Origin: an uncultured Bacteroidales bacterium
GTDB lineage: Bacteria > Bacteroidota > Bacteroidia > Bacteroidales > Bacteroidaceae
NCBI GenBank assembly: GCA_902779315.1
Contig: CACZBC010000011.1
Coordinates: 1 to 48,336, forward strand
DNA length: 48,336 nucleotides
Reading direction: 5' to 3'
The notes under the pieces are model-generated. The model searched no databases, was not told the DNA's origin, and saw nothing but the letters and a program-made list of their open reading frames with translations. The position numbers and the translations under genes are program-made. Shown here piece by piece: positions 9,554-43,945 of this stretch. The first letter of the stretch is position 1. The number at the start of each line of letters is the position of its first letter.

Positions 9554-9573
9554 AATAGGATGATCAAAAACAA

Positions 9574-9675
9574 CACTAGTGTCGTTGCCAAACATCAAAC
9601 GTGACGATTGCCATCGTCACACTAGTAAATTGCCATCGTCACACTATACGTTTGCCATCATAACACTATACGTTG
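9574..9675 (+). repeat. 22-bp repeat array 1 (ACTAGT type), five units
   Basis: Units of exactly 22 bp begin at 9574, 9596, 9618, 9640 and 9662 (last one incomplete). Cores read CACTAGTG, CAAACGTG, CACACTAGT and CACACTATACG; the second halves read TTGCCAAACAT or TTGCCATCGT. It fills the 138-bp gap inside the bat operon between the BatB-BatC gene and batD and ends 16 bases before the batD ATG, so it lies in the transcribed leader unless it hosts a promoter. Confidence 0.92.
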
Positions 9676-9691
9676 AAAGAGATACCACAAG

Positions 9692-11539
9692 ATGAAAAGA
9701 CTTTACACGATATTCACACTCTTGTTCCTTGCGTTAAGTCCTGTCTTTCCGCAAGTTACGCTCAAGGTTCAGGCGCCCAATCAAGCCGAAGTCGGGCAGA
9801 GAATCCGCATCAGTTATGTCGCCAACACGCAGGACATCGAAGACTTCCAGGTGGGGGACTTCGAGGGCTTCAACGTCCTTTATGGTCCTAGCACCAGTCG
9901 CTCGAGCAATTTCTCGATGGTGAACGGCCGCACAACTCAAAGCAGTTCTACAACCTTTACCTATACCGTCGTACCCACTTCCGAGGGAACAGTCAAGGTG
10001 CCTGCAGCAACAATCAAAGTTAACGGAAAAGCCATAAAGAGTGGAACCTCCAGCATCGAAGTGTTGCCTGCAAGTCAGCAACAGAGCCAACAACCTCAGA
10101 ATCAGCAACAAGGAAGCAATCCTCGCCAGCAACGTCAGCAGCAAAATGCTTCCAGCTCAGGTCAGATCAGCGGTAGCGACCTCTATATGACCGTTACTGC
10201 AAACCGAAAGAAAATCTACGAACAAGAAGCTGTGATGCTGACTTACAAGCTCTACACACTTGTGAATATCCAGCAAATCTCTGGCGAAATGCCCCAGATA
10301 GACGGTTGTCACGTCCAAGAACTTGACCGATCTGCACAAATGACGCTCAAGTACGAACGCGTTAACGGCAGGAACTACGGTACAGCCGTCTGGAAACAAT
10401 ATGTCGTCTTCCCTCAGAAAACGGGCAAGATAAAGATTCCCAGCATCACTTTCGACACGCAAGTCGAGGTGCAGAACCATTCGATGGATCCCTTCGACAT
10501 ATTCTTTGGCGGCGGAAGTCTCTCGCAAATGGTTCGTAAACAAATCGTTGCACCAGCCGTTGAGATTGACGTGATGCCCCTCCCAACGCCAAAGCCTGAA
10601 AACTTCTCAGGTGCTGTAGGAAAGTTCTCTGTGTCTGCCACTCTCACTCCAGACCAGGTGAATGCCAACGATGCCGCAACCCTTCGACTCGTCGTCTCAG
10701 GTCAGGGCAATATGAAACTCATGAAAGCTCCGACGGTTCGATTCCCTCAGGACTTCGAAGTCTATGATCCTAAGGAGAATAACAAGACGACAAATACGGC
10801 AACGGGGGCTAAGGGAAACATCATTTACGACTATGTTGTCGTTCCTCGTCACGGCGGAAAATTCTCGATTCCACCAGTGGAATTCTGTTATTTCGACCCT
10901 GAACAGGAGCGTTATAACACGGTTCGGACCGACTCCTTCCACCTCGCAGTTGCCAAAGCAAAAGGCCAACCAGTCGCTTACTCTCGCGAACAAGAGGATC
11001 TTAACGTGCTAAGTAACGACATTCGCTTCATCAAGTTGGGCGAGTACACTAGCGAAGACGAGGATGATTTCTTCGGAACTTCCTCATATTGGCTCACTTA
11101 TCTGTTGCTCTTCCTTGCCTTCGTCGCAGCTTTCCTATGGTTGAGACACCAACAGAAACTCAATCCGAATTCGTGGAGCGTGAAGGGTAAGAAGGCAGGC
11201 AAAGTGGCTTCTCGACGACTGAAAAAGGCTTCGAAACTCTTGCACACCAAGGACGATGCCGCTTTCTACGACGAAGTAATGCGCGCTTTGCTTGGTTATG
11301 CAGGCGACAAACTGTCCCTCCCGACTAACGAACTCAACAAGGAGAATGTCATATCTGGTCTTACATCGAGAGGTGTGGAACAGGAAGTTGTAGATTCCTT
11401 CATTGCAGTCCTGAGCGATTGTGAGTTCGCTCGATATGCTCCGACTGCCGATACGAACCTTGCAAAAGAGAAGATTTACCAGCAGGCATCAGATGTAATT
11501 ACGCGGATGAATGCCTCGCTCAAGTCACACAAAATATAA
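9692..11539 (+). CDS. batD: Aerotolerance protein BatD
   Basis: A 615-residue BatD (oxygen tolerance) protein. It has a signal peptide ([18 protein letters not shown]), several beta-sandwich periplasmic domains with the family pattern [19 protein letters not shown] and [19 protein letters not shown], a Gln/Ser-rich linker near 130-150, one membrane helix at about 464-484 ([19 protein letters not shown]), and a cytoplasmic helical domain ending in [23 protein letters not shown]. It has no visible enzyme motif. It overlaps nothing; batE starts 10 bases after the stop. The upstream gap carries repeat array 1, which may separate its expression from batA-BC. Confidence 0.93.
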
Positions 11540-11549
11540 GAAAATCACG

Positions 11550-12305
11550 ATGAAACCGTATATTTTTGCAATTTTCCTGGCGCTTTCCTCTCTCTCGATG
11601 TTTGCTGCCAGTCCTGCCGAAACGAAGACTTTGGCCGACACTGCTTATGTACAAGGTGATTACGAGAAGGCCGTCAAGCTTTATGGCAAATTGGCTGAGC
11701 AAAGTCCGAATGCTGAGGTCTTCTATAACCTTGGTTGTGCCTACTATCGTCTTGACGATATTGCGCATGGTGTCCTTTGGTTCGAACGTGCTTTGAAACT
11801 CGATCCGAGCAACAAGGACGTTCTCTTCAACCTCGAACTGGCTCGCACGAAGACCATCGACAAGATTATTCCGCAGCATGAATTCATTCTGTTCACCTAT
11901 TTTCGCAGCATGACGAACTGGTTCAGCCTTCGTACCTGGATCATTATCGGCTTGGTGTCCTTTGTCCTCATGCTCGTTACCTTGCTTCTTTTCTGGGCTT
12001 CCGACAGCATATTTGTGCGGAAACTTGCCTTTTCATCGGCAATTTTGCTTTTGCTCATCTCCATACTTGCCAACGTTTGTGCCCTGCAACAAAAGAACTT
12101 CAAGCAGGTTCATACTAGCGGAATCATCATTTCTCCAGCCGTTACAGTCAAGAGTACACCAGCCGACAACGGTAACGATCTCTTCGTTCTTCACGAGGGA
12201 AGTAAGGTCGAAATCCTCGATAGCAGCCTCAAGGAATGGTGCGAAGTGAGCATTGCTGACGGCAAACAAGGCTGGATTCCAAAGAAGTCATTCAGCCTCA
12301 TTTAA
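11550..12305 (+). CDS. batE: Aerotolerance protein BatE (TPR plus SH3-like)
   Basis: A 251-residue protein. The signal peptide ([16 protein letters not shown]) is followed by TPR repeats (about 30-95, with [16 protein letters not shown] and [21 protein letters not shown]), two membrane helices (about 130-150 and 160-182), and a C-terminal SH3-like domain ([13 protein letters not shown], then [11 protein letters not shown] and [11 protein letters not shown]). I start at ATG 11550; the upstream in-frame extension has no signal peptide at its start and overlaps batD. It is the last bat gene; the sensor kinase starts 33 bases later on the same strand. Confidence 0.92.
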
Positions 12306-12338
12306 GGTTAAAGCATCCATCCATTCAAGATAATTCAG

Positions 12339-15300
12339 ATGAAAGTCAAAGCCACCCTTCTCCTCACTATTGCCCTTTTCATCGCTTGTTCCACGGTCGA
12401 TGAAAGGAATGCAATGGTTGTATCGGAGAACAACGACTTGGCTTATCGTCTGCGCTATACAGACATTTCGGCATCCTTGCAGGCTGCGAAGAAAGCTTAC
12501 TCATGTTCTTCTGGAGATCCTGACGGCAAAGCAGAAGCCCTTAACAACATGGCGTACGTCTCTTATCAACAGATGCGCTACGACCAGACGCTTCATCTCT
12601 TGCAACATGTATATCGTTTCAGTCGAAACCAACTTGAGCTGCTTTGTGCTGATGTGCTGTCAATGAAGGTGATGCAACGTATCGGGCGAGGCAAGTCGTT
12701 CTTCGATGCTCGTCTTCGTGCCCAGAAACGTCTCAGCCGTATCCTCTCCGAAGAGAGCACCCTTACTGAGCGCCAGAAGCATCGTCTCCATTATGCTTTG
12801 ACTGAGCTCCACATCGTGGCTTCTACCTATTATTATTATCTCGGTCAGGACAGCGCAGCTCGAAGCGAGATTCAGGAAGCTGCTCAATACGTGAACCTTG
12901 AGACTGATACGACGCAATGGCTTTACTACCATTATATGATGGGTAGCGGTGGACTTATTGATGGCAATCCCGAGGAGGTGACTGTCACGGAGTTTAACCA
13001 TCTTTTCCGCGTCTATACACTTGCCAAAGCCAATCATTTCACCTATTTTGAGGCAAATGCTTTGCAATCGCTTTCGGCTATGGTCGCTGATTCAGTTCGC
13101 GCAAGTTGGGTTAAGCAACAACGTATTGACGCGTATAGTTACCTTTATGGAGAACATCTGCAGTGGCAAAAGGATAGTACACTTTCCCTTCGATACCAGT
13201 TTGCAGCTGCTTTGTCGCATCACTCCATTGCCCTGTTCCAGCAGTATCGCGACCTTTTCCAGACGGCTTGTGCAATGAGAACTTTAGGTGAGGTTTACTT
13301 CACAGCCGAACATTATGATGAGGCGCTCAAAAGTTTCCGTAAGGCTCTTCATCTTGCTTCTGACTACAGACGGTCGCCTTACCAGGTAACTCCTTGGTTG
13401 GCAGGCATTCACGAGAACCTCAGCCTTACTTATAGTGCCCTCGGTGATAAGTTGAGTGCGGACAATCATCGTAATATCTATCTTGACTTGCTTGATGAAT
13501 CTCGCCAGAACAAAGAGTTAGACAGCCGAAAAGCATTGCTGAAACAAGAAGCCAAGGGCGAACGAGTTCAGTTCTTCTTCTTGTTGTCGCTTGTAATATT
13601 AGTTGTTGTCCTTTCCATAATATATTATAGGCAGCTCAAACGACGCTCGCTTTCTTTCGAGAAGCAAGTTCGTGAGATTGGTTCCAGTGACGATTATAAG
13701 CAGGCAAAACACCAGCTTCAGAAACTTTTACAAGAGAGTGAGGAGCACTTAGAAGAGAGTAGGGAGGAATGCGAAGTCATGCGTCAACGCATCCTTAATG
13801 AACAGAAACGGCACATCCTTCAACGTACAAAGTTATCTGTAGTTTATGCCATTATTCCGTACTTGGACAGGGTTATTGCAGAAGTTAAAAAACTCGATGA
13901 AATGGGTGAAAATGTGCCAAAACATCTTTCTTATATCCAAGAATTGTGTTCTGGCATGATGACCATCAATGACCGACTGACTTCATGGATTCAGATGCAA
14001 CAGGGAAAACTCGGTCTTCAAGTGTCTCGCTTCCCACTCAACGAAGTCTTCAGTGTTATTTCCATGCAGCAGCATGCATTTGCTCAGCAACAACTCACGC
14101 TCGAAATCCCTGAGTCAGATATATGGGTAAAAGCAGACAAGGCTCTGACACTCTTCATGGTTAACACTCTTGTCGACAATGCCCGTAAGTTCACGCCTGC
14201 AGGTGGAAAGGTGACAATATTGGCCGATTCCATCGACGATTATGTTGAAATCAGTGTCTGTGACACAGGTATTGGCCTCCCTCAGGAAGATGTGCAAGTT
14301 CTTAACAGCAGCAAAGTTTATGATCCTAATCGCATTGGCACGAAGAATGCAAGCAAAGGTTTCGGTTTCGGTATCATGAATTGCAAAGGCATTATCAATA
14401 GTTATAAGAAGCTTTCATCGCTTTTCAATGTCTGCGACTTTGGTGTTGAGAGCCAAGAAGGGAAGGGAAGTCGTTTCTGGTTCCGTTTGCCCAAAGTGTT
14501 GTCTTTGCTCTTCTTTATATTTACTCTCTTTGCTCATGCAATGCCACAACGTTGCTACGAGTTTTTTGATTCCACCTATAACGCTAATCTTCTGGGAAGA
14601 TATGCTGATGCATGGCTTTATGCTGATAGTGCCATTAAACTAGTAGAAGCGCCGATTGACACATCATTGCTAGTATCACTTTATAATGAGCAGGCCATCG
14701 CGGCTCAGGCTCTTGGAGATTGGGATGCGTATAGACTGAGTAATGCGGAATGTGTTCGTTTGCATCGCCTTTTCAGTACCGACCGTTCGCTTGCTTCCGA
14801 TTGTCAGCGGCTTGAGAAGATGAATGAAGACTCTCACGTTCTTTATGTCTTGATTGTCTTGTTGCTCATCGCCTCCCTTGCTTTGTTCTATATGATTGTG
14901 CTGCGTCATCGTCTCCGTCACCGTGCTTCGCTCGACGACCTTTATCAGCGACTTTCCTCCGTTCTTCGTTCTTTCCCCAAGAATGCAGAAACCTTGGCAG
15001 ATGAGTTGCAGGATATTTCCCACAATCTCGACCAGCCGCAGCTTCGTCAGTCCGTCCATGAGTTACACCATAAGTTCTCCTCTGCTTTGGATAAGTTGCA
15101 CGGAAATAGTGGTTTTATCGAAGGATTTGAGGAAAAAGCACAGAAGCAACGCTTCGAACACGACCGTTTGTATGTGATGAATCAGATACTCGATAACTCG
15201 CTGAGCACCATCAAGCACGAGACGATGTATTTCCCCTCTCGCATTAAACAAATTGCTGATGATATGCAGCAGAATGGCATCGATCCAGATACACATCGCA

Positions 15301-15797
15301 CTCTTCTCGACCTCGTAACATATTATCGCAACATTTATATGTTGCTTTATGAACAGGCTCAGCGTCAGACCGACCAAAGTGTATTACGCTTGCAACCTGT
15401 TGCTGTGAGTGACCTTATTACGTACGCCTCTGAAGTTTGTAATGTTGAAACTCACTCAATGAAGGCTTATGTAAAGGGCGACGAAACACTTTTGCATCTG
15501 CTTTTTGACCAATTGTTCTCAGTAGTGCCAGAAGACAGTACAATTTCTGTTGAAGAGCGTGAAAACATGACCTATATAATATGTAATGTATTAGGTCAAT
15601 CACTTACGCCTGAACAACTCTCCGATCTCTTCTCTCCGCAGACAGAACGAATAGAGTATCTTGTTATACGTCAGATACTTCGTGAGCATGATGCTGCGTG
15701 TGGTCATCCAGGACTTCGACTTGTGGCAGAAAACACAAAGTCGGGTTACAAGATAAGTTTTTCCCTACTGACAACTCATAAACCTATGAACTCATAA
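12339..15797 (+). CDS. Two-module hybrid sensor histidine kinase (TPR sensors)
   Basis: A 1152-residue protein that reads as two sensor kinases in one frame. Module 1: lipoprotein-like signal (LLTIALFIAC, Cys at 17), TPR-rich periplasmic region to about 400, helix near 410-428, coiled coil, then an HATPase with N box NTLVDNARKFTP (about 607-618), G1 DTGIGL (about 640) and G2 GFGFGIMNCKG (about 673). Its dimerisation region shows no classic HE-RTPL motif. Module 2: hydrophobic segment near 720, short TPR region, helix near 833-855, coiled coil, then STIKHETMYFPSRI (His near 958), followed by a degenerate ATPase without N or G1 box. The response regulator begins 11 bases downstream. It may correspond to DUF5112/DUF5113 proteins, from memory. 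The ligand is unknown. Confidence 0.87.
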   Translation: MKVKATLLLTIALFIACSTVDERNAMVVSENNDLAYRLRYTDISASLQAAKKAYSCSSGDPDGKAEALNNMAYVSYQQMRYDQTLHLLQHVYRFSRNQLELLCADVLSMKVMQRIGRGKSFFDARLRAQKRLSRILSEESTLTERQKHRLHYALTELHIVASTYYYYLGQDSAARSEIQEAAQYVNLETDTTQWLYYHYMMGSGGLIDGNPEEVTVTEFNHLFRVYTLAKANHFTYFEANALQSLSAMVADSVRASWVKQQRIDAYSYLYGEHLQWQKDSTLSLRYQFAAALSHHSIALFQQYRDLFQTACAMRTLGEVYFTAEHYDEALKSFRKALHLASDYRRSPYQVTPWLAGIHENLSLTYSALGDKLSADNHRNIYLDLLDESRQNKELDSRKALLKQEAKGERVQFFFLLSLVILVVVLSIIYYRQLKRRSLSFEKQVREIGSSDDYKQAKHQLQKLLQESEEHLEESREECEVMRQRILNEQKRHILQRTKLSVVYAIIPYLDRVIAEVKKLDEMGENVPKHLSYIQELCSGMMTINDRLTSWIQMQQGKLGLQVSRFPLNEVFSVISMQQHAFAQQQLTLEIPESDIWVKADKALTLFMVNTLVDNARKFTPAGGKVTILADSIDDYVEISVCDTGIGLPQEDVQVLNSSKVYDPNRIGTKNASKGFGFGIMNCKGIINSYKKLSSLFNVCDFGVESQEGKGSRFWFRLPKVLSLLFFIFTLFAHAMPQRCYEFFDSTYNANLLGRYADAWLYADSAIKLVEAPIDTSLLVSLYNEQAIAAQALGDWDAYRLSNAECVRLHRLFSTDRSLASDCQRLEKMNEDSHVLYVLIVLLLIASLALFYMIVLRHRLRHRASLDDLYQRLSSVLRSFPKNAETLADELQDISHNLDQPQLRQSVHELHHKFSSALDKLHGNSGFIEGFEEKAQKQRFEHDRLYVMNQILDNSLSTIKHETMYFPSRIKQIADDMQQNGIDPDTHRTLLDLVTYYRNIYMLLYEQAQRQTDQSVLRLQPVAVSDLITYASEVCNVETHSMKAYVKGDETLLHLLFDQLFSVVPEDSTISVEERENMTYIICNVLGQSLTPEQLSDLFSPQTERIEYLVIRQILREHDAACGHPGLRLVAENTKSGYKISFSLLTTHKPMNS

Positions 15798-15808
15798 AAT
15801 TACACGAT

Positions 15809-16531
15809 ATGGATAAATTCAAAGTAATCATTGTCGAGGACGACAAACTGGAACTTAAGGGTACTCAGCAGATCTTGCAAACCGAAGTGCCTGAGGCAGA
15901 GATTATTGGCACAGCAACAGGCGAAGCCGATTTTTGGAAGCTGATGCGAGAAGGCCAGCCAGACCTCGTTCTGCTCGACCTTGGACTGGGTGGTAGCACA
16001 ACCGTTGGCGTAGATATCTGCCGACAGCTCAGGACACGCTATTCCGACATGAAAATCCTTATCTTTACTGGCGAAATTCTTAATGAACGCCTTTGGGTTG
16101 AGGTGCTTACAGCAGGAGCAGACGGCATTATCCTCAAGACGGGTAATCTTTTGCAGAGAGATGATATCGTACAAGTGATGCATGGCCGTCATCTTGTTTT
16201 CAACGAGCCTTTCCTCGAGAAAGTGATGGCGCGTTTCCGCAAGGTTGTTTGCAAGGAACAGGCTTCCGTCGATGCTTTCGTGGAGTACGAGATAGATGAG
16301 TATGACGAACGTTTCCTGCGCCATCTTGCACTTGGCTACACGAAAGACATGATAGCTGGTCTTCGACAGATGCCTTTCAGTACGAAGAGCCTTGAGAAGC
16401 GACAAGTTGACCTCACCAACCGACTCTTTCCTGAGCGTGAGAGAAGTGGTGTGAATGCCGTACGACTTGTGGTTAGAGCCATACAGTTACATATCATCGA
16501 CCCCGATAATTTAGTTGCTGATGAACAATAA
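15809..16531 (+). CDS. Response regulator, receiver plus LuxR-like HTH
   Basis: A 240-residue regulator. The receiver domain (1-125) has the acidic cluster E10-D11-D12, phospho-acceptor D57 in VLLDLGL, the T in IFTGE and the K in IILKTGN. The C-terminal part (about 160-230) has an HTH-like block (LALGYTKDMIAGLRQMPFSTKSLEKRQVDL), with the NarL/LuxR pattern only loosely kept. It is the obvious partner of the two-module kinase 11 bases upstream. Its targets are unknown; no repeat array lies immediately next to this gene. Its stop overlaps the start of the next gene. Confidence 0.92.
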   Translation: MDKFKVIIVEDDKLELKGTQQILQTEVPEAEIIGTATGEADFWKLMREGQPDLVLLDLGLGGSTTVGVDICRQLRTRYSDMKILIFTGEILNERLWVEVLTAGADGIILKTGNLLQRDDIVQVMHGRHLVFNEPFLEKVMARFRKVVCKEQASVDAFVEYEIDEYDERFLRHLALGYTKDMIAGLRQMPFSTKSLEKRQVDLTNRLFPERERSGVNAVRLVVRAIQLHIIDPDNLVADEQ

Positions 16532-17075
16532 CGAGCGCAACTTTACCATCCTATTGGCGTTGGCGGCGTCGCTGCCTTTCCTCTCGTGGGTGTTGTCTGC
16601 TTTGGGAGTGCCATGTAGAAGTATTCTCGATGACGACGGCCTTCGATGGCTTTTCCGGCATGTGAGCGACTGCCTTCACAGTCGATTGGTGATGTTCGCG
16701 CTTTGCTGTCTGATGATGCAAGGTGTGATAAAACAAAGTGGAATACTTCCACTAGGACGTGCTTTTCGCGATCCACGCTTTTTGCGTTACCTTGCCATCT
16801 ATTCTGTTGTTTTTCTTACCATTCTGTTTGCTGCTATTGCTCCCAGCAGTCCTTTGCTAAGTGTCACAGGTGGTCTTGCAGGCAGCCCTTTGCTTGATGG
16901 CTTGCTCTTTCTTGGTTGGTTCTCGTTTATCGTGTTTTGCCTTAGCTATGGGCACAACAAACGTGAGCCTTGGCCTCAGATGCTCACCCATGGTATCCGA
17001 AAGCATCCGCTTGCAATCCCCTTCGCCATCATTGTTTCATTTTGCTGGCAATGCATTCAATATATGATATCATGA
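16521..17075 (+). CDS. Small polytopic inner-membrane protein, unknown function
   Basis: A 184-residue protein with about four membrane helices (near 8-25, 53-68, 88-108 and 120-142, plus a hydrophobic end). I choose ATG 16521, which overlaps the response-regulator stop by 11 bases; TTG at 16515 is possible. The N-terminal block LPFLSWVLSALGVPCRSILDDDGLRWLF reminds me of a Bacteroidales family with distant similarity to the AbgT transporter start, but the protein is far too short for a complete transporter. Its stop overlaps the helicase start (ATGA). Function not assigned. Confidence 0.78.
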   Translation: MNNNERNFTILLALAASLPFLSWVLSALGVPCRSILDDDGLRWLFRHVSDCLHSRLVMFALCCLMMQGVIKQSGILPLGRAFRDPRFLRYLAIYSVVFLTILFAAIAPSSPLLSVTGGLAGSPLLDGLLFLGWFSFIVFCLSYGHNKREPWPQMLTHGIRKHPLAIPFAIIVSFCWQCIQYMIS

Positions 17076-19327: not shown

Positions 19328-19350
19328 ATGAATGCTGCGTTGAAAAATTA

Positions 19351-19460
19351 GGCGTGCCTAAATCGCAAACGTCACGTGTGTCGTTGGCAAACATCACGTG
19401 TGTAATTTGCAATCGTCACGTGCCTCGTTGAGCATCATCACGTGCCACGTTTGCTTACCT
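19351..19460 (+). repeat. 22-bp repeat array 2 (CACGTG type), five units
   Basis: Units start at 19351, 19373, 19395, 19417 and 19439, each 22 bp. The first begins GGCGTGCC; the next four begin CACGTG. It occupies the 178-bp gap between the converging helicase gene and the minus-strand secreted-protein gene. Units 3-5 are almost identical, in order, to units 3-5 of array 3 (24901-24960). The rest of the gap (19461-19505) shows no hairpin terminator. Confidence 0.93.
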
Positions 19461-19505
19461 CGCTAAGTGTGTGCTTTACAACGGATTGGCGCGTGCTGTT
19501 TTTCC

Positions 19506-24361: not shown

Positions 24362-24387
24362 ACCTTAAACTTTTTAACGCTAATTCC

Positions 24388-24822: not shown

Positions 24823-24856
24823 GTTTTGTTTCTTGTTATGGAGTCTTTTCAAACGT

Positions 24857-24966
24857 CACGTGTGTAATTGTGAAACGTCACGTGTGTAAATTGCAAACGT
24901 CACGTGTGTAAATTGCAATCGTCACGTGCCTCGTTGAGCATCATCACGTGCCACGTTTGCCAGTCA
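24857..24966 (+). repeat. 22-bp repeat array 3 (CACGTG type), five units
   Basis: Units start at 24857, 24879, 24901, 24923 and 24945; the preceding 12 bases look like the end of another unit. Units 2 and 3 are nearly perfect consensus (CACGTGTGT start, TTGCAAACGT or TTGCAATCGT end). Units 3-5 duplicate those of array 2 with one mismatch over 60 bp. It fills most of the 173-bp gap between the lipoprotein gene and the small secreted-protein gene, immediately upstream of the latter. Confidence 0.95.
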
Positions 24967-24995
24967 GGCTAACTGTTTGATATTATGCGGACTAG

Positions 24996-25550: not shown

Positions 25551-25553
25551 TTC

Positions 25554-26888: not shown

Positions 26889-26898
26889 TGTGAGAGTA

Positions 26899-27378: not shown

Positions 27379-27388
27379 CTTGTATTTA

Positions 27389-28021: not shown

Positions 28022-28034
28022 GTCTTATCTTGTA

Positions 28035-30458: not shown

Positions 30459-30479
30459 AAGCTTATTTATATGTGTGTG

Positions 30480-30487
30480 CAAAGGTA
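30480..30487 (-). promoter_or_regulatory. Candidate -7 box for the phosphoesterase-pyrE-argH operon
   Basis: On the minus strand, TACCTTTG (TAnnTTTG) lies 22 bases upstream of the ATG at 30458. The expected -33 region (a T- and C-rich run) has no TTTG. Repeat array 4 begins 47 bases further upstream. Confidence 0.6.
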
Positions 30488-30533
30488 CGAAAAAAAGGAG
30501 AATGAAGGAAGAAGAAAGAGGAAATATTTGGCT

Positions 30534-30643
30534 TAACGTGCCTAGTTGCAAAATAACTAGTGTGACGATTGCGATTTACTAGTGTGACGTTGGCGATTTA
30601 CTAGTGTGACGTTTGCGATTTACTAGTGTGACGTTTGGCAACT
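30534..30643 (-). repeat. 22-bp repeat array 4 (ACTAGT type), inverted, five units
   Basis: Units start at 30534, 30556, 30578, 30600 and 30622, each 22 bp. On the plus strand four begin ACTAGTGTGACG and end GCGATTT; read on the minus strand they match the family pattern (CACACTAGT start, TCGCAATCGT or CGCAAACGT end). The unit at 30534 is divergent (TAACGTGCC). The array lies between the ATP-grasp gene stop and the phosphoesterase promoter. It is the only one of the seven in this orientation. Confidence 0.93.
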
Positions 30644-30661
30644 TCACCAGCCATGTTTCCT

Positions 30662-31621
30662 CTAACCAAATGCTTCGACTTCTGCCGAGTAGTGTCCGTA
30701 GATGTATTCCACTACCATGCGGCCGTAGCGACCCTGTTCTGCAACGAGGCAGGAGACGAGTCCCATCGTCCAACGCCAATTGACCTCTATGCAGGGACAG
30801 ATGCCTTCCTGGGCCAACATCATGTCGATTCCGACTGGACCAGCGTAGTCGAAACGGCTCAGGCGCGCAGTCCACCAAGCCCGTATCTCTTGGAGATACT
30901 GCAAGGGAATATACTGAGCCAGCCAAGCGAGCTTCTGTTCTTCTGGAGCCACCCAATTCCCCAGGTACGCCCCTCGCTCGTTGGTGTAGAAGAGCGAAAG
31001 TCCTCTGTATTCAACTCCGCCCTTTCCATCGAGCCAGAACTCAAGGGCAAAGTCGGTCACTTTATGCAGGAACTGTTCCACAACAATACTTCCCTGAGCC
31101 TTCAGAATGCGCTTTGCCCAAGCCTTCCATTGTGGATTGTCTGTCTTCATCAAGCCCCTTCCACTACTACTCCAAGGTGATTTCAGCAAAGCCTCGCCAT
31201 ATTGGTTTACAGTTTCCTCTGCCTCCTCGATGCTCTGGCAAATGGCGGATTGGCCTGCAAGGTGTCCGTCGAGGGGCAATTCGTCTCGAAGTTCCTGCAA
31301 GAGGGAAACGGCAGTCTGTCTGTGGGAAAGTTGCCTGATTTGCTCAATCTTGTCTTGAGTGGGCAAAAGCGACGCCTGAACGCCTGCCAGCTCGAGTTGG
31401 TGACAAAGTGCAGGACTCCATCCCCAAGGCTCAATATGCGTGTCTGGAGGCAAAACCAGATGCTCTTCTCCATTCCAAACGATATCCTCCTCTTCAGCCC
31501 ACCACTGCGGAAGCCACCAAAGTTCACGCCGCATCTGCTGAATCTGAGCAGGAGCCGTATAGCCCGGATGCCCGTCAGCAAGGGCCATATCGTTCTCTGG
31601 GTTGAAGATGTAGAGCGTCAT
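30662..31621 (-). CDS. ATP-grasp-like protein
   Basis: A 319-residue cytosolic protein. LLKSPWSSSGRGL (about 144-156) looks like an ATP-grasp nucleotide loop, GSIVVEQFLHKVTDFALEFWLD like the second-subdomain strands, and GIDMMLAQEG with ICPCIEVNWRWTMG (about 270-293) like the Mg2+-binding end (Asp, Glu, Asn). Such enzymes ligate a carboxylate to an amine or a similar nucleophile through an acyl phosphate. It starts 3 bases after the GT/HIT/SpoIID gene stop, a tight pair that suggests joint function. The start NPENDMALADG is distinctive for this Bacteroidales family. Substrate unknown. Confidence 0.85.
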   Translation of the reverse strand: MTLYIFNPENDMALADGHPGYTAPAQIQQMRRELWWLPQWWAEEEDIVWNGEEHLVLPPDTHIEPWGWSPALCHQLELAGVQASLLPTQDKIEQIRQLSHRQTAVSLLQELRDELPLDGHLAGQSAICQSIEEAEETVNQYGEALLKSPWSSSGRGLMKTDNPQWKAWAKRILKAQGSIVVEQFLHKVTDFALEFWLDGKGGVEYRGLSLFYTNERGAYLGNWVAPEEQKLAWLAQYIPLQYLQEIRAWWTARLSRFDYAGPVGIDMMLAQEGICPCIEVNWRWTMGLVSCLVAEQGRYGRMVVEYIYGHYSAEVEAFG

Positions 31622-31624
31622 AGT

Positions 31625-35332: not shown

Positions 35333-35363
35333 TTTGTTCTTTTACGATTTACAATTTGCTTTG

Positions 35364-35394
35364 CAAATTTACAAAAAAAAGGTAAAGAAACAAA
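35364..35394 (-). promoter_or_regulatory. Bacteroidetes-type promoter of the GT/HIT/SpoIID operon
   Basis: On the minus strand a -33 TTTG (35394-35391) is followed after 19 bp by TAAATTTG (35371-35364), a near-perfect consensus. The ATG lies 32 bases downstream. Repeat array 5 starts 49 bases upstream of the -33 box. Confidence 0.87.
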
Positions 35395-35442
35395 ATAACT
35401 TAATCGAAATAACGAATCTTGATACATTTTGCCCTAAAACGT

Positions 35443-35530
35443 AACGTGGTTAAATTGCAAACGTAACGTGTTATGTTGGCCATTTTAACGTGTTATGATT
35501 GCAAACATCACGTGTTACGCCAACCATTTT
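35443..35530 (+). repeat. 22-bp repeat array 5 (AACGTG type), four units
   Basis: Units start at 35443, 35465, 35487 and 35509. The first three begin AACGTG and the fourth CACGTG; second halves alternate TTGCAAACGT/TTGCAAACAT with a variant ending CCATTTT. It lies just upstream of the GT/HIT/SpoIID promoter, at one end of the 613-bp gene-free stretch. Confidence 0.92.
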
Positions 35531-35945
35531 GCTTCAAATCCCTTTAAAATGTGGGCTGTGTACTGATTTTTTGAACCACTAAAAGGCGCGTAAAGAACGG
35601 GGGAAAGTATCAAAACGAGAGTTTTTTGAATGGTTTATGAGGCATTTTCAGCAGGATTTTGATACATTTTGCCCCCTTATCTGTGGTTCTGCATCTTTGG
35701 AGCAGGAGCCTTACTGGTATCGTATCTTATTGTATTTCTGCCTATTAGATGAATATTGACCTGACTGAGTATTTCAATTTCAGTTATTTCAGTTGAAATT
35801 TCGGATACCCACTTTCTCTTAATATACTATATAACTATATATATATTAATTAGTTAAGTAGTCTTTAGAAAGGGGTAGTGTTCCTTGTTTTTCTAACTGA
35901 AATTGAAATAACTGAAATGCCCAGCTTTGATGACTCGTTTTTCTT
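35531..35945. other. Gene-free AT-rich stretch with palindromic and inverted repeats
   Basis: No convincing gene is seen here. It holds a GTATCAAAA (35607-35615) facing TTTTGATAC (35657-35665); TTGATACATTTTGCCC at 35659-35674, which is a direct repeat of 35419-35434; and a 17-bp perfect inverted repeat, TATTTCAATTTCAGTTA at 35770-35786 against its complement at 35894-35910, enclosing a 107-bp core that includes a TATA-rich run (35820-35860). The last pair may act as a loose terminator for the symporter gene ending at 35946, or be a relic of a mobile element. No transposase or tRNA is next to it. Confidence 0.7.
35770..35910. repeat. 17-bp inverted repeat around AT-rich core
   Basis: The two arms match perfectly over 17 bp, and further partial AACTGAAAT units extend beyond both arms (for example TTTCAGTTGAAA at 35788-35799). 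The core is strongly AT-rich. The arrangement is unlike a normal short-loop terminator because the loop exceeds 100 bases. Confidence 0.8.
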
Positions 35946-37394: not shown

Positions 37395-37413
37395 GTCAAA
37401 TCATTTCTGTGAA

Positions 37414-40356
37414 TTATGAACTCATCACCACTGCTTCCTTCTTGCAGCCATCCACTTTGATGGTCAAGGGGTTTTCCAGGTGAATATGTCGAACGTGTTT
37501 TGTCTCTTGTACGGCAGGCAACTTGTCGAGTTCTTCCTGCCGATAGATGCCATCACCTCGGAAGGCATTGATAGTCAGGTAGCATACGCCAAGCGAGGTG
37601 AGGTTCTGGAAGAAGTGCGTACCTTGGCTTGGGTCAACTTGGAAGCTGTCAAGACCTGCCTCCACAATAACCTGAGCGGCACTGATATGACTCCATTTCA
37701 CGGGAATTCCCAGCCAAGGGTCGCTGCTTCCCCATCTGCCAGGACCGATGAGGAGATAGGAAGAGTTGGGATTCTCCAAGAACTTCCTGTTAATTTTCTC
37801 AATCTCTTCGGCAATCGCAGGATTGTTAGATGGTGTGTACCCCTCAGTTTTGACGTATACGATGTCCTGTATGTCGCTGTAGATGCCGTGTCCTATTGCC
37901 GAATGAGAGCGCAAGAGACAGTCCTCGTCGGCAATTGCGGTGAGGTCTTCGTCAAGTTCCATTCGGTTGTCCACCATAGGTCTGATTTGCAAGAGGCAGA
38001 ACTCGCCTGTTCGGTCGGCATGGAGATTGACGGCAAACTCTATCTCGACGGGGCGTTTCATCTCGTCCTGACCGTACTTCAGCACTTTGCTCATCAGTTC
38101 GGGCAAAGGAAAGACATCACTTTGCAAGACACCGGCAAAAGAGATGATCTTGCGGTTGCGACCCTCGTAGAAACCATCATAGATGCATTGGTCGACAGGG
38201 TCGTAGGTGGAACAAATCCATTGAAGTGTGCCGTCGCCTTCAGCCTCTCGCACAGGTACCTTGATGAGATTGAAGCCATCATTCACGCTTATTTCACCAG
38301 CTTCCTTAGAACTTTGTGCTCTCAAAGCGAGGAAATAGGTTTGGGTGTCGCGCAGAGCAATCTCCATTTCGCTCATCTGCAAGACCTGATGCGGGTGGGC
38401 AGGACAGACGCGAAGGCTTGTTCCGCCATCCACAATGTACTTGCCAAGGCCCATTGCAAGCGAGACGGTCCCCTCTTCGGCCTTCTCGTCGCCGATTGGA
38501 TAATAGTTGATACTTCGCGCCACACCACTAATGACTGGGTAGAAGCGACCGTTATGTTCCTCTCCCACAACCTCTTGCATGATAACGGCCATCTTTTCTT
38601 GGTCGATGACATTGCTCGTAGCAGTCATATAGTCTTTGCTGCTACGATAGAAGACGCTGGCATATACGGCTTTAATCGATTCTGAGAGCATAGACAAACG
38701 CTCGTAGCGATCGTGAGCTGCAGGAACCATGTAAGTGCTGTAAACGCCTGCAAAAGGTTGGTAATGAGAGTCTTCGAGGAGACTTGAAGAACGTATAGCG
38801 ATAGGTCCGGCCACAACGTCGAGGAAGGCTTCCATATCGCCAACAAGCCTCATTGGAAGTCTTGCACGAAGGAAGTGTTGCAGGATTTCCTCATCGGGTA
38901 TGTCGCTGAGTGCCAACTGATAAAGGTCGTTGGTGTCCATAAACTCGTCGAAGATGTCCGTACAAAGCACGACAGTTTTGGGAATGCAGACAGTCACGCC
39001 TTCCTTTTCGTTAAGGTCTGTATGGCGACCAAGCAAGTGGTCTATGAAAGCGAGGCCGCGTCCTTTGCCTCCCAAACTGCCTTCTCCGATACGGGCAAAA
39101 TTGCTGTACTGGTCGAAACGTTCACGTTGGAAGACTGCCACAACACCCTGATTCTTCATCCTTCGATAGGCAACAATGGCATCTAGTATGATTGCACGAT
39201 GTGCATCGACGTCCTGCAGACTTTCCCACGTAATGCCTTTCAGGAATTCAGAAATGGGGAAGAGTGCTCGAGAGGCAAGCCAACGACTCACGTTATTGTG
39301 GGAAATATGGTAGAGGAGACTTCGTGTGGGAAGTGTCATGATGTTGTTCTGCAGGTCCTTCAGGTTGTGCAATCGCGCCACTTCCTCCATCGTATCTGGG
39401 TCTCTGAAGATGAAATCGCCGAACCCGAAGTAGTCGCGAAGGTGGTCGCGAAGGTCCACATCAATCTTTTTCGAGTTCTTGTCGATGAAACTTGCATGAC
39501 ATTCCTTGGCGAGTTTTGCATTTTCAGTTTCGCTCGAATCGAGGATGAGGGGCACATATGGATCGCGAGCACGAATGGCACTAAGCAGTTTGAAACCAGC
39601 TTTTTCGTCCTTCTTCCCTCCAGGCGTAAGGGGGAAACGGCAATCGCTGATGACGCCAAGCGTATTGTCAGCAAAACGATTGTACAAGAGCCATGCTTCT
39701 TCGTAGTTACGAGCCAACACAATCTTTGGCCGGCCACGCATTCGCAACATTTCGAGGCTCGTGTTCAGGGCTTCCGTAGCGAACTCGAGGCTTTGCTGAA
39801 GGACGAACTTATAAAGCGTGGGCAGAATGCTTGAATAGAAACGGATACTGTCCTCGACGACAAGAAGCATCTGCACTCCTGCCGAACGGATGTCGTGTTC
39901 GAGGTTCATGCGGTCTTCCATCAGTTTGATGATGGAGAGCAGCAATTCCGTATTTCCCAGCCAACAGAAGACATACTCGAAGACGCTCAAGTCCTCGTTT
40001 TGCATGCGTTTCGTGATGCCGTGACTGAAGGGAGTCAGCACGACAATGGGGGTTGTGGGGTAGTGCTGCTTGATGTCTCGTGCAATATCGAACACTGAGT
40101 TGTCTTCCGCAGCAGGCATGACAATGACGAGGTTAATTTGTCCCCCGGCCATTTGCTCTTTTGCTTCGTCGCCGTTATGAACTTGAATGAAGCGAGGTGG
40201 GAAGCGAAGTCCCAGTTTTGCGTATTCCGAGAAAATCTTCTCATCCACTCGACCGTCGTCCTCAAGCATGAAGGCATCGTATGGATTGGCGATGAGAAGC
40301 ACGTTGTAAACGCGGTTGAGCATCAAGTCAACAAAGGAGGTATCTTTCAGCGTCAT
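37414..40356 (-). CDS. Receiver-like domains fused to PPDK-type ATP-grasp domain
   Basis: A 980-residue cytosolic protein. Residues about 17-150 and 160-300 resemble two receiver folds; the second has VVEDSIRFY and ISDCRFPL where acidic pocket and phospho-acceptor Asp would be. Residues about 420-800 are the ATP-binding domain of pyruvate phosphate dikinase/PEP synthase: GSLGGKGRGLAF (about 427-438), AIRSSSLLEDSHYQPFAG (about 519-536), and FCLLQIRPM (about 787-795). The phosphohistidine swivel and the PEP-binding barrel are absent. Instead the C-terminus carries GPGRWGSSDPWLGIPV (about 870-885) and DPSQGTHFFQNLTS. Likely an ATP-dependent phosphotransferase of unknown target; often annotated as PEP synthase, which the missing domains contradict. 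Confidence 0.88.
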   Translation of the reverse strand: MTLKDTSFVDLMLNRVYNVLLIANPYDAFMLEDDGRVDEKIFSEYAKLGLRFPPRFIQVHNGDEAKEQMAGGQINLVIVMPAAEDNSVFDIARDIKQHYPTTPIVVLTPFSHGITKRMQNEDLSVFEYVFCWLGNTELLLSIIKLMEDRMNLEHDIRSAGVQMLLVVEDSIRFYSSILPTLYKFVLQQSLEFATEALNTSLEMLRMRGRPKIVLARNYEEAWLLYNRFADNTLGVISDCRFPLTPGGKKDEKAGFKLLSAIRARDPYVPLILDSSETENAKLAKECHASFIDKNSKKIDVDLRDHLRDYFGFGDFIFRDPDTMEEVARLHNLKDLQNNIMTLPTRSLLYHISHNNVSRWLASRALFPISEFLKGITWESLQDVDAHRAIILDAIVAYRRMKNQGVVAVFQRERFDQYSNFARIGEGSLGGKGRGLAFIDHLLGRHTDLNEKEGVTVCIPKTVVLCTDIFDEFMDTNDLYQLALSDIPDEEILQHFLRARLPMRLVGDMEAFLDVVAGPIAIRSSSLLEDSHYQPFAGVYSTYMVPAAHDRYERLSMLSESIKAVYASVFYRSSKDYMTATSNVIDQEKMAVIMQEVVGEEHNGRFYPVISGVARSINYYPIGDEKAEEGTVSLAMGLGKYIVDGGTSLRVCPAHPHQVLQMSEMEIALRDTQTYFLALRAQSSKEAGEISVNDGFNLIKVPVREAEGDGTLQWICSTYDPVDQCIYDGFYEGRNRKIISFAGVLQSDVFPLPELMSKVLKYGQDEMKRPVEIEFAVNLHADRTGEFCLLQIRPMVDNRMELDEDLTAIADEDCLLRSHSAIGHGIYSDIQDIVYVKTEGYTPSNNPAIAEEIEKINRKFLENPNSSYLLIGPGRWGSSDPWLGIPVKWSHISAAQVIVEAGLDSFQVDPSQGTHFFQNLTSLGVCYLTINAFRGDGIYRQEELDKLPAVQETKHVRHIHLENPLTIKVDGCKKEAVVMSS

Positions 40357-40381
40357 AGTCGTTCAGGCCGTTTTATCGCGC

Positions 40382-40413
40382 CAAAGTTACGAATAATTTC
40401 TGATACTGCCAAA
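40382..40413 (-). promoter_or_regulatory. Bacteroidetes-type promoter of the PPDK-like/AGCS operon
   Basis: On the minus strand a -33 TTTG (40413-40410) precedes TAACTTTG (40389-40382) by 20 bp. The ATG at 40356 lies 25 bases downstream. Repeat array 6 begins 27 bases upstream of the -33 box. Confidence 0.87.
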
Positions 40414-40440
40414 CATTTGGCTTGGAGAATGTTCAAACAT

Positions 40441-40550
40441 GGCGTTGTTAAATCGCAAACTTAACGTTGTTAAATCGCAAACGTATAGTGTTATGATTGC
40501 AATCGTAACGTGCCACGATTACAAACCTAACGTGCCGCAAGTCGACGAGT
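40441..40550 (+). repeat. 22-bp repeat array 6 (AACGTT/AACGTG type), five units
   Basis: Units start at 40441, 40463, 40485, 40507 and 40529. The first begins GGCGTTGTT and ends CGCAAACTT; the others begin AACGTT, ATAGTG, AACGTG and AACGTG, and the last decays. It lies in the divergent region between the PPDK-like promoter and the GH98 promoter, 65 bases before the latter. Confidence 0.93.
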
Positions 40551-40615
40551 TGTGCCTTTGCCTTGCATTTACATCAAGTTGAAACTGACAAATAAGCAAT
40601 TTTTCCCTCAAATCA

Positions 40616-40646
40616 TTTGAGAAAATGGCAAATAATACTACCTTTG
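40616..40646 (+). promoter_or_regulatory. Bacteroidetes-type promoter of the GH98 gene
   Basis: TTTG at 40616-40619, a 19-bp spacer, and TACCTTTG at 40639-40646 match the consensus exactly. The -7 box ends 18 bases before ATG 40665 and 42 before ATG 40689, so the second start leaves a more usual leader. Confidence 0.9.
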
Positions 40647-40688
40647 TGGGACATAAATTAAATAATGTACGCTTTTAAGTTTTGCGTT

Positions 40689-43600
40689 ATGAAACGACAG
40701 TTCCTTTGTTTGCTAATTGCCATTTGCTCTTTCTCCTTTGCATGGGGACAGCAGCGACGACCCATCGATAACGAGCATCCTATGTGGATGATTCACATTG
40801 ATGTATGGAACTCGGCTGATCCGCAGAAAATCATTGACTTGATTCCAGAGGACATACGCCCGTTTGTATGCATGAATCTTTCGCTTTCGTGTCAGTTCGA
40901 TACGAACACGAGCATGTATCGAATGCCACGTAATGCCGTACGCACTTACAAGTCGTGGGCTTCAGTTTGTCAGCAGAATGGCATGTGGTTCTCGTGTCAG
41001 CCGGCATCTGGAGGCCATACCCATATTCAGGACAACGACCTCGAGACCTTTGAATACTTCTTCAAGACCTATCCCAACTTCTTGGGTTGGAACTATGCTG
41101 AGCAGTTCTGGGCTTTTGGTGATGCTGGAGACAAGAGTTCGATGACGGCAGCCAGTCGTTGGGCACTCTTTGCCAATCTGGTCGAGATGTCCCACAAGTA
41201 TGGTGGTTTCTTGACTGTCAGCTGGTGTGGTGGCGTTTATCATATGAACACGAACCCCATTGCGGAGCTGAAACTCGACCCCAATTTCCTTACGGCTTGC
41301 AGAAAATACCCAGAAGCGATACTCTTCCTATATAAATACACACATTGCAGTAGCTTCTACAACAACGAGAGTGTTTGTTGGGGACCGTTTGTATCGGGCT
41401 TGACCAAGAACTATGGGGTGCGTTACGACAATTGCGGATGGAACGATATGACCTCGAAACTTGTGGGTGAAAGCAAATGCTCTTATCCAGGTAGTGCCGG
41501 CATCGGAACGGTGATGGAGCAATGTTGCGTGAATGGAGGAGCCGTCTGGGATGGTCCTGAACTGATCTGGAGCGGAGAGTGCTTCCAGAACCAAAGCGAC
41601 ACTCAAGTAGATGGCTATACCCGTCGCAACTGGGGCACTTTCCCCAACTTCAAAGGCATTTGGCTGGACATGTGGCGCAGGATTATCGATGGCACCATGT
41701 ATATCCCATCGCGCGAGGAGGTGGTGGCTAAGACCAAGATTGTCGTCGTCAATGACAAGACGGATGATTATACTTCGTGGGACGACCTCTATAATGGCCT
41801 TTATCTGCAAACCGATCCTGGCAACCAGAGAAAGGAGAGCGCGTGGAACTACGGGCAATGGCAAAACAATCTGTGTTACTTCAAGTCGACAGGCCGGTAT
41901 GGTGCGATTCCTATCGTGACAGGACTTTATGACAATGCCGCCAAAGCCATTCCCCTGCAAGTGAAAAAGTCGAACTATACAACCCGATGGTCAACACAAA
42001 CGAGGAAACAAACCGACTTCAACAGGCAATATCCAGAAGTGTCGAAGGGCGACCTTTACGTGAACCGCTATCGCAATCAATTAGTGACCTATACACCTTA
42101 CACTTATTTGAATGGGAAGCAAACGGCCTCAGCCAGTATTCCCTTGATGTATAACACCTGTGACACGCTGAAGCTCCATTATGGTAAACTTTCTGGTGGC
42201 GCCATTCGAGAATATGCCGACCATATTGACTTCTATCTCAACAATTACCGCAACGATACCACCACCTTGCAGACAGACGAGATTATCATTACTGGTGTTA
42301 CTGCCGAACCGACAGCCACACTTCAGACTCCATCTACAGGAGCGCCCAGCCATAGTGCGAGCCTTTCGTCTAAATTATATAATGTGGAAGATCAGACCTT
42401 TGCCCTTAGTGTCAAGCACTTGGGGCCTGCAATTCTGCGTATTGATTGCTCAGGTTCAGGAACAGAACGACAGACCGACTTCCTGCCTGACAGGACATTG
42501 GAGCAACCTCTTCAGCCCCAACCCTATCAAGGCCCCATTATCATCGAGGCCGAGAATATGGATTTGAAGTCGGCAGACCGCAGGTTGACACATTCAGGCT
42601 GGTGGGCACAGGATTATAATGATTTCGCAGGTATGGGATTTGTAGAGACACAAGGCAGTACAACGTGTGCTTTGCGCCATCAGTTGCAACTCTCCGAGGG
42701 TGGAAACTATCGAATACTCGTACGTTACTGCAATAGTAACAAGATTGGAAAGATGAGGGCAACCATTAACGGCAGGACGCAGAACGTATCGTTCGAGAAG
42801 GTTGGCAAGAACGATTGGCGTGAGGTTGCCATCGATGTCACGTTGAAGGCAGGGAAAAACGATTTCGTGCTTCAGAATATGGGTGCCATCAAGATGACAA
42901 TCGACCAGATTACATATGAACCAGAAGGCTATCAGAAAGAGAAGTTCAAGGTGACCATGCGAAATGCTGACTTTGGTCAGGTTGTGGCAGATGCCGATTC
43001 AGTCGCGGCTGGCGACACGGTCCAGTTGACTGTCCTGCCTGAAGACGGTTATGCCTTGAAGGTTTTGCGTGTGGTCAACTCAGTGTTCTTCACACAAGAC
43101 AAGACCATACCTTTTGATGAAAACGCCAGCAAAGTTTCGTTTGTTATGCCAGATGAGAATGTAACCATCCAGCCGGTATTCTACGACTTGGCAGCCTCTT
43201 ATGAGCTCGACTTCACAAATGTGGCAAATGGTGCGCTGCCTGAAGGGTGGCGTACGACTGACGGAACAGATGTCCGCAACTATCCTTCCCAGAATGGTAG
43301 CGGGCCTCGCACCTTTGTCGGCCTGACTGGTTATCAGGGCAAAGCGCTTTATTGGCGCAATACCAGCGCTGAATATGGGCGTTTGTCGGACTATCCGCTC
43401 ACATTGGAACCTGGCGAGTATTCGCTCATCTTCGCTATGGCTGCATGGAAGGGAACACCTGTCTATCAGGCTAAGATTATCAAAGCTAATGGTTCTGCCA
43501 TAAAAACTTCAACACAATTGACAGCCAAACCCAATATCAACGGCAATAGTGCTGGCGACATCTCGACTGCAGTCCGTTACACTTTGAATTTTGAGGTGGA

Positions 43601-43847
43601 GGATGCAGGCAATTATGTCATCCAATTCCTCGACAAAACTTCATCGGGAGGCATGCACGAGTTCCTTTTGGCAGAGTGTCGTCTGCGCAATCTTTCTGTT
43701 GTGACGGAGATAGGGATGCCTAAAGGAATCAGACGCCAACCCAAGGGAATTTACAGCCCAACAGGTATGCGCCTTCAGGCTTTACAGCGTGGCTTGAACA
43801 TTATTGTGGACGAAGACGGAAACACAAAGAAGTTGATTGTCCGCTAA
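40689..43847 (+). CDS. GH98-like secreted endo-glycosidase, multidomain
   Basis: A 1052-residue secreted enzyme. Signal peptide FLCLLIAICSFSFAWGQ. The catalytic part (about 25-560) looks like GH98: NFLGWNYAEQFWAFG (Glu 138), YGVRYDNCGWND (Asp 247 or 252) and GPELIWSGECF (Glu 291 or 297) fit the family's acidic residues. A CBM6/35-like module follows (about 625-755, IIIEAENMDL, then RILVRYCNS), then an InlB-B-like repeat, a jelly-roll region and a Por-like tail ending GLNIIVDEDGNTKKLIV. Known GH98 enzymes cut blood-group A/B glycans or xylan. I prefer ATG 40689, directly before the signal peptide; 40665 is possible. It stands alone behind its own promoter. Confidence 0.85.
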   Translation: MKRQFLCLLIAICSFSFAWGQQRRPIDNEHPMWMIHIDVWNSADPQKIIDLIPEDIRPFVCMNLSLSCQFDTNTSMYRMPRNAVRTYKSWASVCQQNGMWFSCQPASGGHTHIQDNDLETFEYFFKTYPNFLGWNYAEQFWAFGDAGDKSSMTAASRWALFANLVEMSHKYGGFLTVSWCGGVYHMNTNPIAELKLDPNFLTACRKYPEAILFLYKYTHCSSFYNNESVCWGPFVSGLTKNYGVRYDNCGWNDMTSKLVGESKCSYPGSAGIGTVMEQCCVNGGAVWDGPELIWSGECFQNQSDTQVDGYTRRNWGTFPNFKGIWLDMWRRIIDGTMYIPSREEVVAKTKIVVVNDKTDDYTSWDDLYNGLYLQTDPGNQRKESAWNYGQWQNNLCYFKSTGRYGAIPIVTGLYDNAAKAIPLQVKKSNYTTRWSTQTRKQTDFNRQYPEVSKGDLYVNRYRNQLVTYTPYTYLNGKQTASASIPLMYNTCDTLKLHYGKLSGGAIREYADHIDFYLNNYRNDTTTLQTDEIIITGVTAEPTATLQTPSTGAPSHSASLSSKLYNVEDQTFALSVKHLGPAILRIDCSGSGTERQTDFLPDRTLEQPLQPQPYQGPIIIEAENMDLKSADRRLTHSGWWAQDYNDFAGMGFVETQGSTTCALRHQLQLSEGGNYRILVRYCNSNKIGKMRATINGRTQNVSFEKVGKNDWREVAIDVTLKAGKNDFVLQNMGAIKMTIDQITYEPEGYQKEKFKVTMRNADFGQVVADADSVAAGDTVQLTVLPEDGYALKVLRVVNSVFFTQDKTIPFDENASKVSFVMPDENVTIQPVFYDLAASYELDFTNVANGALPEGWRTTDGTDVRNYPSQNGSGPRTFVGLTGYQGKALYWRNTSAEYGRLSDYPLTLEPGEYSLIFAMAAWKGTPVYQAKIIKANGSAIKTSTQLTAKPNINGNSAGDISTAVRYTLNFEVEDAGNYVIQFLDKTSSGGMHEFLLAECRLRNLSVVTEIGMPKGIRRQPKGIYSPTGMRLQALQRGLNIIVDEDGNTKKLIVR

Positions 43848-43892
43848 CGAAATCCTGCGATTGGGAAGGCCTGCAAGGTAGTTGGTAAACGA

Positions 43893-43945
43893 GGCGTTGT
43901 TAAATTGCAAACATCACGTGTGTCGTTGGCAAACATCACGTGTGA
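43893..43945 (+). repeat. 22-bp repeat array 7 (CACGTG type), two to three units
   Basis: Units start at 43893 (GGCGTTGTT start), 43915 (CACGTGTGT start) and 43937, where the third is cut off at the stop codon of the GH36 gene (43946). Unit 2 is identical to unit 2 of array 2. It lies between converging genes. No hairpin terminator is visible between 43848 and 43892. Confidence 0.9.

Follow-up and report, generated by a model that had tools for sequence, protein, structure and literature searches.

Intergenic arrays on a 22-bp lattice in a Bacteroidaceae genome suggest an undescribed kind of gene-end element

Bidirectional intrinsic terminators lie at gene ends and in convergent gaps, and plasmid iterons are direct repeats of 17-22 bp. 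The nearest described element to the arrays reported here is, judging from the available part of its description, the BrickBuilt minisatellite/MITE of Porphyromonas gingivalis, which is made of a tandem 23-nt unit present in 1 to 22.8 units, bears IS5-like inverted repeats in its leader and tail segments, and is limited to P. gingivalis and P. gulae (PMC4596501). The same part of that source mentions that P. gingivalis W83 has tandem 22-nt direct repeats. In addition, the available part of a further report records CGTC-tagged repeats in Bacteroidetes among other phyla (PMC3733652).

We analysed arrays found in a stretch of 48,336 nucleotides, hereafter the window, from an uncultured Bacteroidales bacterium of the family Bacteroidaceae (contig CACZBC010000011.1), together with other parts of its genome and with relatives. 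Compared with BrickBuilt, as far as the available part of PMC4596501 describes it, the arrays likewise consist of a short tandem unit without spacers, are intergenic, occur in many copies per genome and differ in length by whole units (among strains there, among relatives here), and the long stem-loops predicted for BrickBuilt are counted as a further shared feature. Unlike BrickBuilt, the unit is of 22 bp instead of 23 nt, only unit-sized end caps are present in place of the leader and tail, and the BrickBuilt terminal repeat, as given in that part of the source, has 8 matches in the window at up to 2 mismatches against 5.6 expected, none of them bracketing an array. The W83 repeats are also tandem and of 22 nt, a likeness drawn from that mention alone and not from sequence.

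The arrays resemble REP/BIME elements, as these are presented in the available part of PMC3733652, in being extragenic and clustered. Mobilisation of palindromes by a REP-associated (RAYT/Y1) transposase would give intergenic repeats close to gene ends, as seen here; however, unlike REP/BIME elements with a RAYT, no Y1 transposase match (PF01797) was obtained in the window's genome, which is 84% complete, nor in 13 of the 18 other genus members searched, and we rejected this explanation as highly improbable. With bidirectional terminators the arrays share the gene-end place, the convergent gaps and, in two arrays of the genome G047, flanking A- and T-runs, but they differ in the lack of a long T-tract in the window's genome, in their repeated 22-bp units and in the intra-operon position of one array. 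They are like plasmid iterons in being direct repeats of about two helical turns, but are placed at many chromosomal gene ends. They differ from CRISPR, as the initial annotation had argued, since the units abut without constant-length unique spacers: 212 of 226 anchor spacings in 64 candidate arrays are exactly 22. No description of such a 22-bp element was found in the literature searched, restricted to open full texts, and within the searches made no named repeat family matched, in agreement with the annotation, to which no such element described in Bacteroidales was known. Rfam gave no match above gathering score in the window, and a 20-mer of the commonest unit was present in no viral contig.

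Table 1. Coordinates and gene context of the seven arrays of the window.
Array	Position	Strand	Context
1	9564..9676	.	BatB-BatD gap of the bat operon; internal and end units
2	19341..19472	.	between convergent genes, 3' of a UvrD-like helicase
3	24847..24978	.	same-strand genes on both sides
4	30525..30656	.	same-strand genes on both sides
5	35433..35532	.	613-bp gap, same-strand genes
6	40431..40540	.	divergent genes; 1 of 4 such among 47 classified arrays
7	43883..43949	.	convergent genes; two full units and one degenerate

All seven arrays with a 22-bp step that had been reported in the window were found at their places (Table 1), array 7, which is absent from the Tandem Repeats Finder list, being read directly from the sequence. 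The initial annotation had described an exact 22-bp tandem repeat; the step is indeed exact, but the units differ among themselves. Its count of two to five units applies to internal units only, because the arrays also carry degenerate end units, and its statement that no array lies inside genes holds in the window except for the last 2-3 bases of array 7, which overlap the end of the next ORF. The proposed anatomy of the unit, with a conserved second half and one core, had to be corrected. The unit can be taken to consist of 11-bp half-units in alternating forward and reversed orientation, with two centres that alternate every 11 bp, and its weight matrix matches it on both strands. The A centre is TTGCAA, divided between TTG and CAA, while 193 of the 205 units carry AC or GT at the B centre; the commonest half-units terminate in TTTA-CTA-G and ACGT-CAC-A. 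Units at either end of an array are degenerate, frequently with cores of their own, such as CTGCAG or CCTTAG.

The dyad symmetry is weak in the window's genome. At p<0.05, a palindromic consensus unit was obtained for 5 of the 46 own arrays, compared with 17 of 48 in other members of the genus and 1 of 28 in other Bacteroidales. Within an array the units mostly share one orientation (165 of 182 units, against a shuffled mean of 129), and both orientations are present in 14 of 49 arrays. An orientation code relative to the genes was rejected (14 vs 13); an alternative count gave AC 16 and GT 11 for own tandem arrays, and 14 and 4 for the tandem arrays of the genus, of which 8 and 1 come from a single bat gap. 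A hand count of 22/36 included the window's own bat array and becomes 21/35 without it. In the own genome, dyad pairing is clearly above the column expectation at one column pair only (0.71 vs 0.54) and equal to or below it at most others, and G.T and A.C mismatches in own tandem arrays number 61 vs 67 and 61 vs 64; in the bat-gap alignment of nine species, G.T is slightly above A.C (22 vs 13 and 22 vs 19). Own pairing is mostly at column expectation and the two mismatches are about equal in tandem arrays; they suggest a symmetry that belongs to the DNA, or to both of its strands, rather than to a single transcript.

These features bear on the cooperative protein binding suggested in the initial annotation. 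The arrays might be DNA lattices that a dimeric protein binds cooperatively, with one half-site per 11 bp in alternating orientation; a filament of the protein would lie along one face of supercoiled DNA and insulate or compact gene ends, and its specificity would drift by lineage. The exact 22-bp step with its 11-bp centre spacing, the nearly constant AC or GT at the B centre, the random orientation relative to genes and the equal mismatches all fit a DNA-bound dimer. No candidate protein came up, without a systematic search, and, as set out below, differing 22-bp units in one genome and the folding of arrays in other genera fit a sequence-indifferent hairpin instead. We consider the protein lattice rather unlikely.

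For the genome-wide set, 434 kb of the window's genome were examined, i.e. the window and 20 stretches of contigs C1-C5. A weight matrix from four window-like seed units yielded the 64 candidate arrays, and the statistics were made on the 52 strong ones, with at least 3 anchors and a best unit of at least 18 bits; of the 12 candidates below this cut-off, some (L009:7388, L014:13351) resemble genuine short arrays and others chance matches. At the same density throughout, the genome would contain ~340 arrays. The number of internal units per array ranged from 2 to 8 in this sample. Forty-seven of the 52 strong arrays are intergenic, 2 are at stretch edges and 3 overlap ORFs as called by a simple in-house gene caller, so the genome scan bore out the intergenic placement first noticed in the window, and 22-bp arrays were also found in related genomes. 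Self-matching of the 434 kb at periods 15-30 gave 46 clusters at 22, 26 at 15 and fewer than ten at each remaining period, namely 0-9 at those of 17-30, the largest at 18 and 21; when only intergenic clusters were counted, there were 42 at 22, 7 at 21 and 0-2 at every other period of 17-40. A separate, dispersed repeat of ~160 bp adjoins two arrays (L019:19084-19245 and L020 near 6330, on own contig C3); it occurs at 14 places in the sister genomes G041 and G043 among the matches listed, and Rfam matches nearby are only below gathering score.

The frequency of arrays differs with the arrangement of the neighbouring genes. Among gaps of at least 100 bp, those between convergent genes contain an array in 13 of 20 cases, tandem gaps in 28 of 76 and divergent gaps in 4 of 29 (Fisher p = 0.0005 for convergent vs divergent and 0.03 for tandem vs divergent); for gaps of 50-99 bp the corresponding counts are 2 of 7, 0 of 32 and 0 of 4. 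In tandem gaps, the median distance from the upstream stop to the first internal unit is 34.5 bp. On the basis of this bias between gap classes and of the short distance after the upstream stop, the arrays are mainly gene-end elements. Their place is terminator-like, 3' of stop codons and between convergent genes, with 4 of the 47 classified arrays divergent. Two arrays of the window are exceptions, one in a divergent gap and the other, array 1, inside the bat operon; the latter ends ~20 bp before BatD and therefore cannot be a full terminator.

The best reading of the arrays, which we put forward tentatively, is that they are sequence-indifferent hairpin elements at gene ends. Partly palindromic tandem units on a fixed 22-bp lattice would fold as RNA or single-stranded DNA, with stems made by neighbouring units and the short core between them as the loop. 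The arrays being roughly mirror-symmetric, the effect on transcription or RNA that we infer would be exerted on transcripts from either side. They may be weak bidirectional terminators, or barriers that fix mRNA 3' ends and would shield the upstream message, also within an operon. Their sequence could drift, and units could be gained or lost, provided that the lattice persists.

The hairpin reading rests mainly on other genera, with little RNA support from the own genome. It is also favoured by the place of the arrays after genes, by the phase kept in the BatB-BatD gap, by length changes of whole units and by the dyad covariation in that gap. Arrays of the genus fold with a mean z of -3.0 vs -2.0 for other 3' regions, and own arrays with z of -2.1/-1.95 vs -1.44 for the control, whereas the arrays of other Bacteroidales have no advantage over other 3' regions (-2.47 vs -2.54). 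Runs of at least 4 on the right side of own arrays are of T in 21 of 52 vs of A in 9, and on the left side of A in 25 of 52 vs of T in 17; no longer T-tract is in excess on the right, where runs of at least 5 are of T in 4 of 52 and of A in 5. Swaps of unit order and of end units had no effect on the folding of 43 own arrays (mean z -0.27 and 0.07; -0.10 and 0.05), and random units folded better than the real own arrays (+0.61, +0.77) in a test that is biased because it mixes orientations. The core is conserved in the own genome, although it would be a loop under the hairpin model. Selection for an RNA hairpin in the own genome is therefore unsupported: shuffles, dyad pairing, palindromicity, mismatches and T-tracts are mostly against it, while the z values relative to the control and the T/A runs of 4 are weakly for it. 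A scan for canonical terminators, positive in 19 of 54 array regions and in 7 of 62 others, was left unused, because matches can fall inside the arrays.

Outside the genus, a five-base lattice pattern has matches in 29 of 121 genomes of the family and in 11 of 30 genera, that of the window included. Twenty pattern-matched places were fetched and 15 of them folded, namely all 8 fetched arrays of G153, 3 of the 6 fetched loci of G047, all 3 arrays of G155 and one array of G087. For all 14 folded arrays of G153, G047 and G155, which like the rest had been chosen for matching a repeat pattern, z is below -2 whichever strand is folded (-2.4 to -13.5); the G087 array gave -1.6/+0.5. In the printed folds of L183, L185, L195 and L197, neighbouring palindromes pair and the core forms the loop. 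The G153 unit is a 14-bp palindrome near AACGAACGTTCGTT with a variable core of ~8 bp, and certain G047 arrays can be read as a single long hairpin. In G047, L190 and L194 have an A-run on the left and a T-run on the right, and the L191 array is without the T-run. We infer that the arrays of these genera are the same kind of thing as those of the window.

Random stretches contained 1 period-22 cluster in 160 kb of G153, none in 80 kb of G155, 2 in 60 kb of G104 and 3 in 40 kb of G087; given so few clusters, the arrays of G153 and G155 are either sparse or missed by self-matching. When one stretch from each of 20 genera was taken (353 kb), 22 was the commonest intergenic period of 16-34, with 8 clusters against 0-3 at other periods; three of these stretches (G047, G059, G067) are from contigs with known matches elsewhere, and G067 supplies 2 of the 8 clusters, at least those two looking like 11-bp repeats. 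In G067 and G093 (genus g39) there are 11-bp tandem arrays, AACGTCGTAGG and AACGTACCTTG, i.e. of half the lattice period.

Closer to the window, the best matches of UvrD are metagenome genomes of gut, mostly ruminant, Bacteroidaceae. Intergenic clusters of period 22 numbered 34 in 26 UvrD loci of the clade (next above period 16: 6 at 21), 10 on contig C1 of 20 genus members (6 at 21) and 23 in 54 UvrD loci of other Bacteroidales (8 at 21, 7 at 18), and a sample from other families of the order gave 1. Among the 27 regions 3' of UvrD, period 22 scores best in 14 and another period in 3; in the remaining 10, two of which are outgroup, no period reached the threshold. A TTGC lattice has 26-144 forward-strand matches in G005, G008, G013, G018 and G020, and few or none in other genomes of the genus; many of the matches listed have differing unit sequences. 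Differing 22-bp units also share one genome, as in four arrays within 20 kb of G012 (L152), an arrangement that counts against a lattice read by one protein. A second 22-bp family, centred on GCAATTGC and perfectly palindromic in places, was observed in G003, G016, G018, L043, L051, L055, L057 and L160.

The sister genomes were compared through 24 distinct flank-anchored pairs. Relative to G041 and G043, the length difference is 0 or a multiple of 22 in 14 of 19 comparisons, one difference of -198 being the loss of an array, and the remaining differences are 51, -165, -1 and twice 1300; relative to the more distant G042 and G044, none of 5 is a multiple of 22 (-1, 9, 21, 398, 398). Array 5 has an equal-length ortholog in G041. 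Array columns are 83.2% identical to G041, compared with 92.2% for other intergenic DNA and 93.3% for genes; for G043 the values are 85.6%, 89.3% and 86.4%. Over 11 comparisons, substitutions cluster in the arrays, with 76 adjacent pairs against an expectation of 41, but clustering is about equal in other intergenic DNA (101 vs 58), and conversion tracts are unsupported. Two places differ in other ways. The flanks of array 4 (window 30517-30674) are 158 bp apart here vs 556 or 1458 bp in four sister genomes, and in the two that were read, G041 and G042, the place holds sequence that by eye is unrelated, with a lattice array of its own. At L021:3571-3708, whose flanks are conserved in L133 and L137, the array is in the opposite orientation to those of the sisters and lacks their end caps.

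The lower conservation of the arrays than of other intergenic DNA, the changes of copy number by whole units and the occurrence of array loss would be expected of a neutral or selfish minisatellite, expanding and contracting by slippage or unequal exchange, tolerated 3' of genes, purged from promoters and without function; the bias in place could then reflect promoter avoidance. Indels are rare throughout intergenic DNA in the sister comparisons (0.02-0.03 per substitution), so that phase keeping alone is weak proof of selection and weak evidence against a minisatellite. Nevertheless, such a minisatellite leaves unexplained both the preferred period of 22 with unrelated units and the lattice kept in one small operon gap of 13 genomes, and we regard it as unlikely.

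This operon gap separates BatB from BatD, which were both seen in 12 of 26 fetched clade loci and, with the window, in 13 genomes. The gap is of 138 bp in eight genomes and of 94, 137, 159, 160 and 182 bp in the others; modulo 22 it is 6 in eleven genomes and 5 in two, i.e. one of these two values in 13 of 13. Despite this shared remainder, the unit sequences differ widely. Self-match at period 22 is at least 0.77 in 11 of the 12 fetched loci, the exception being L061, whose gap is two units shorter; in L048, period 16 outscores 22. When the bat gaps of nine species were aligned, pairing at the A and B centres involved 74.7% and 71.7% of cells, respectively, compared with 22-42% in slid versions. 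The covariation at these dyads was equalled in 0 and 1 of 500 shuffles, a control that takes no account of relatedness. In the nine species AC is invariant at 3 of 5 B centres while the arms vary, a further point, together with the covariation, in favour of the protein lattice. On the other side, the own Bat array has a likeness of 0.70 to the other own arrays (43 arrays) vs 0.67 to its orthologs, and in L044, L045 and L048 the Bat array is less like own arrays than like orthologs; these values therefore give no support for co-adaptation to one protein. Genome-wide concerted evolution, which had been suspected, is likewise unsupported by this likeness.

Alongside the hairpin reading, a broader formulation is possible, if somewhat more doubtful: that the arrays belong to a Bacteroidaceae-wide class of gene-end DNA elements set by geometry, namely an 11/22-bp lattice of alternating dyads with end caps, in which place and register are kept, letters are rewritten and selection sees structure. 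Phased dyads or nested hairpins would be the structural property under selection, and place and register would be kept over genus-level divergence.

These observations, in particular the place and the 22-bp step that relatives often retain under changing letters, suggest that the arrays are gene-end elements of a kind not yet described, with a putative function. A period and a place that outlast the sequence are unusual for a repeat, and searches for repeats by sequence only would miss such a class. The notion that geometry is conserved and letters are not becomes testable at many sites of one genome. To our knowledge, transcript ends in Bacteroidaceae are poorly mapped, and the arrays are natural places to look for them.
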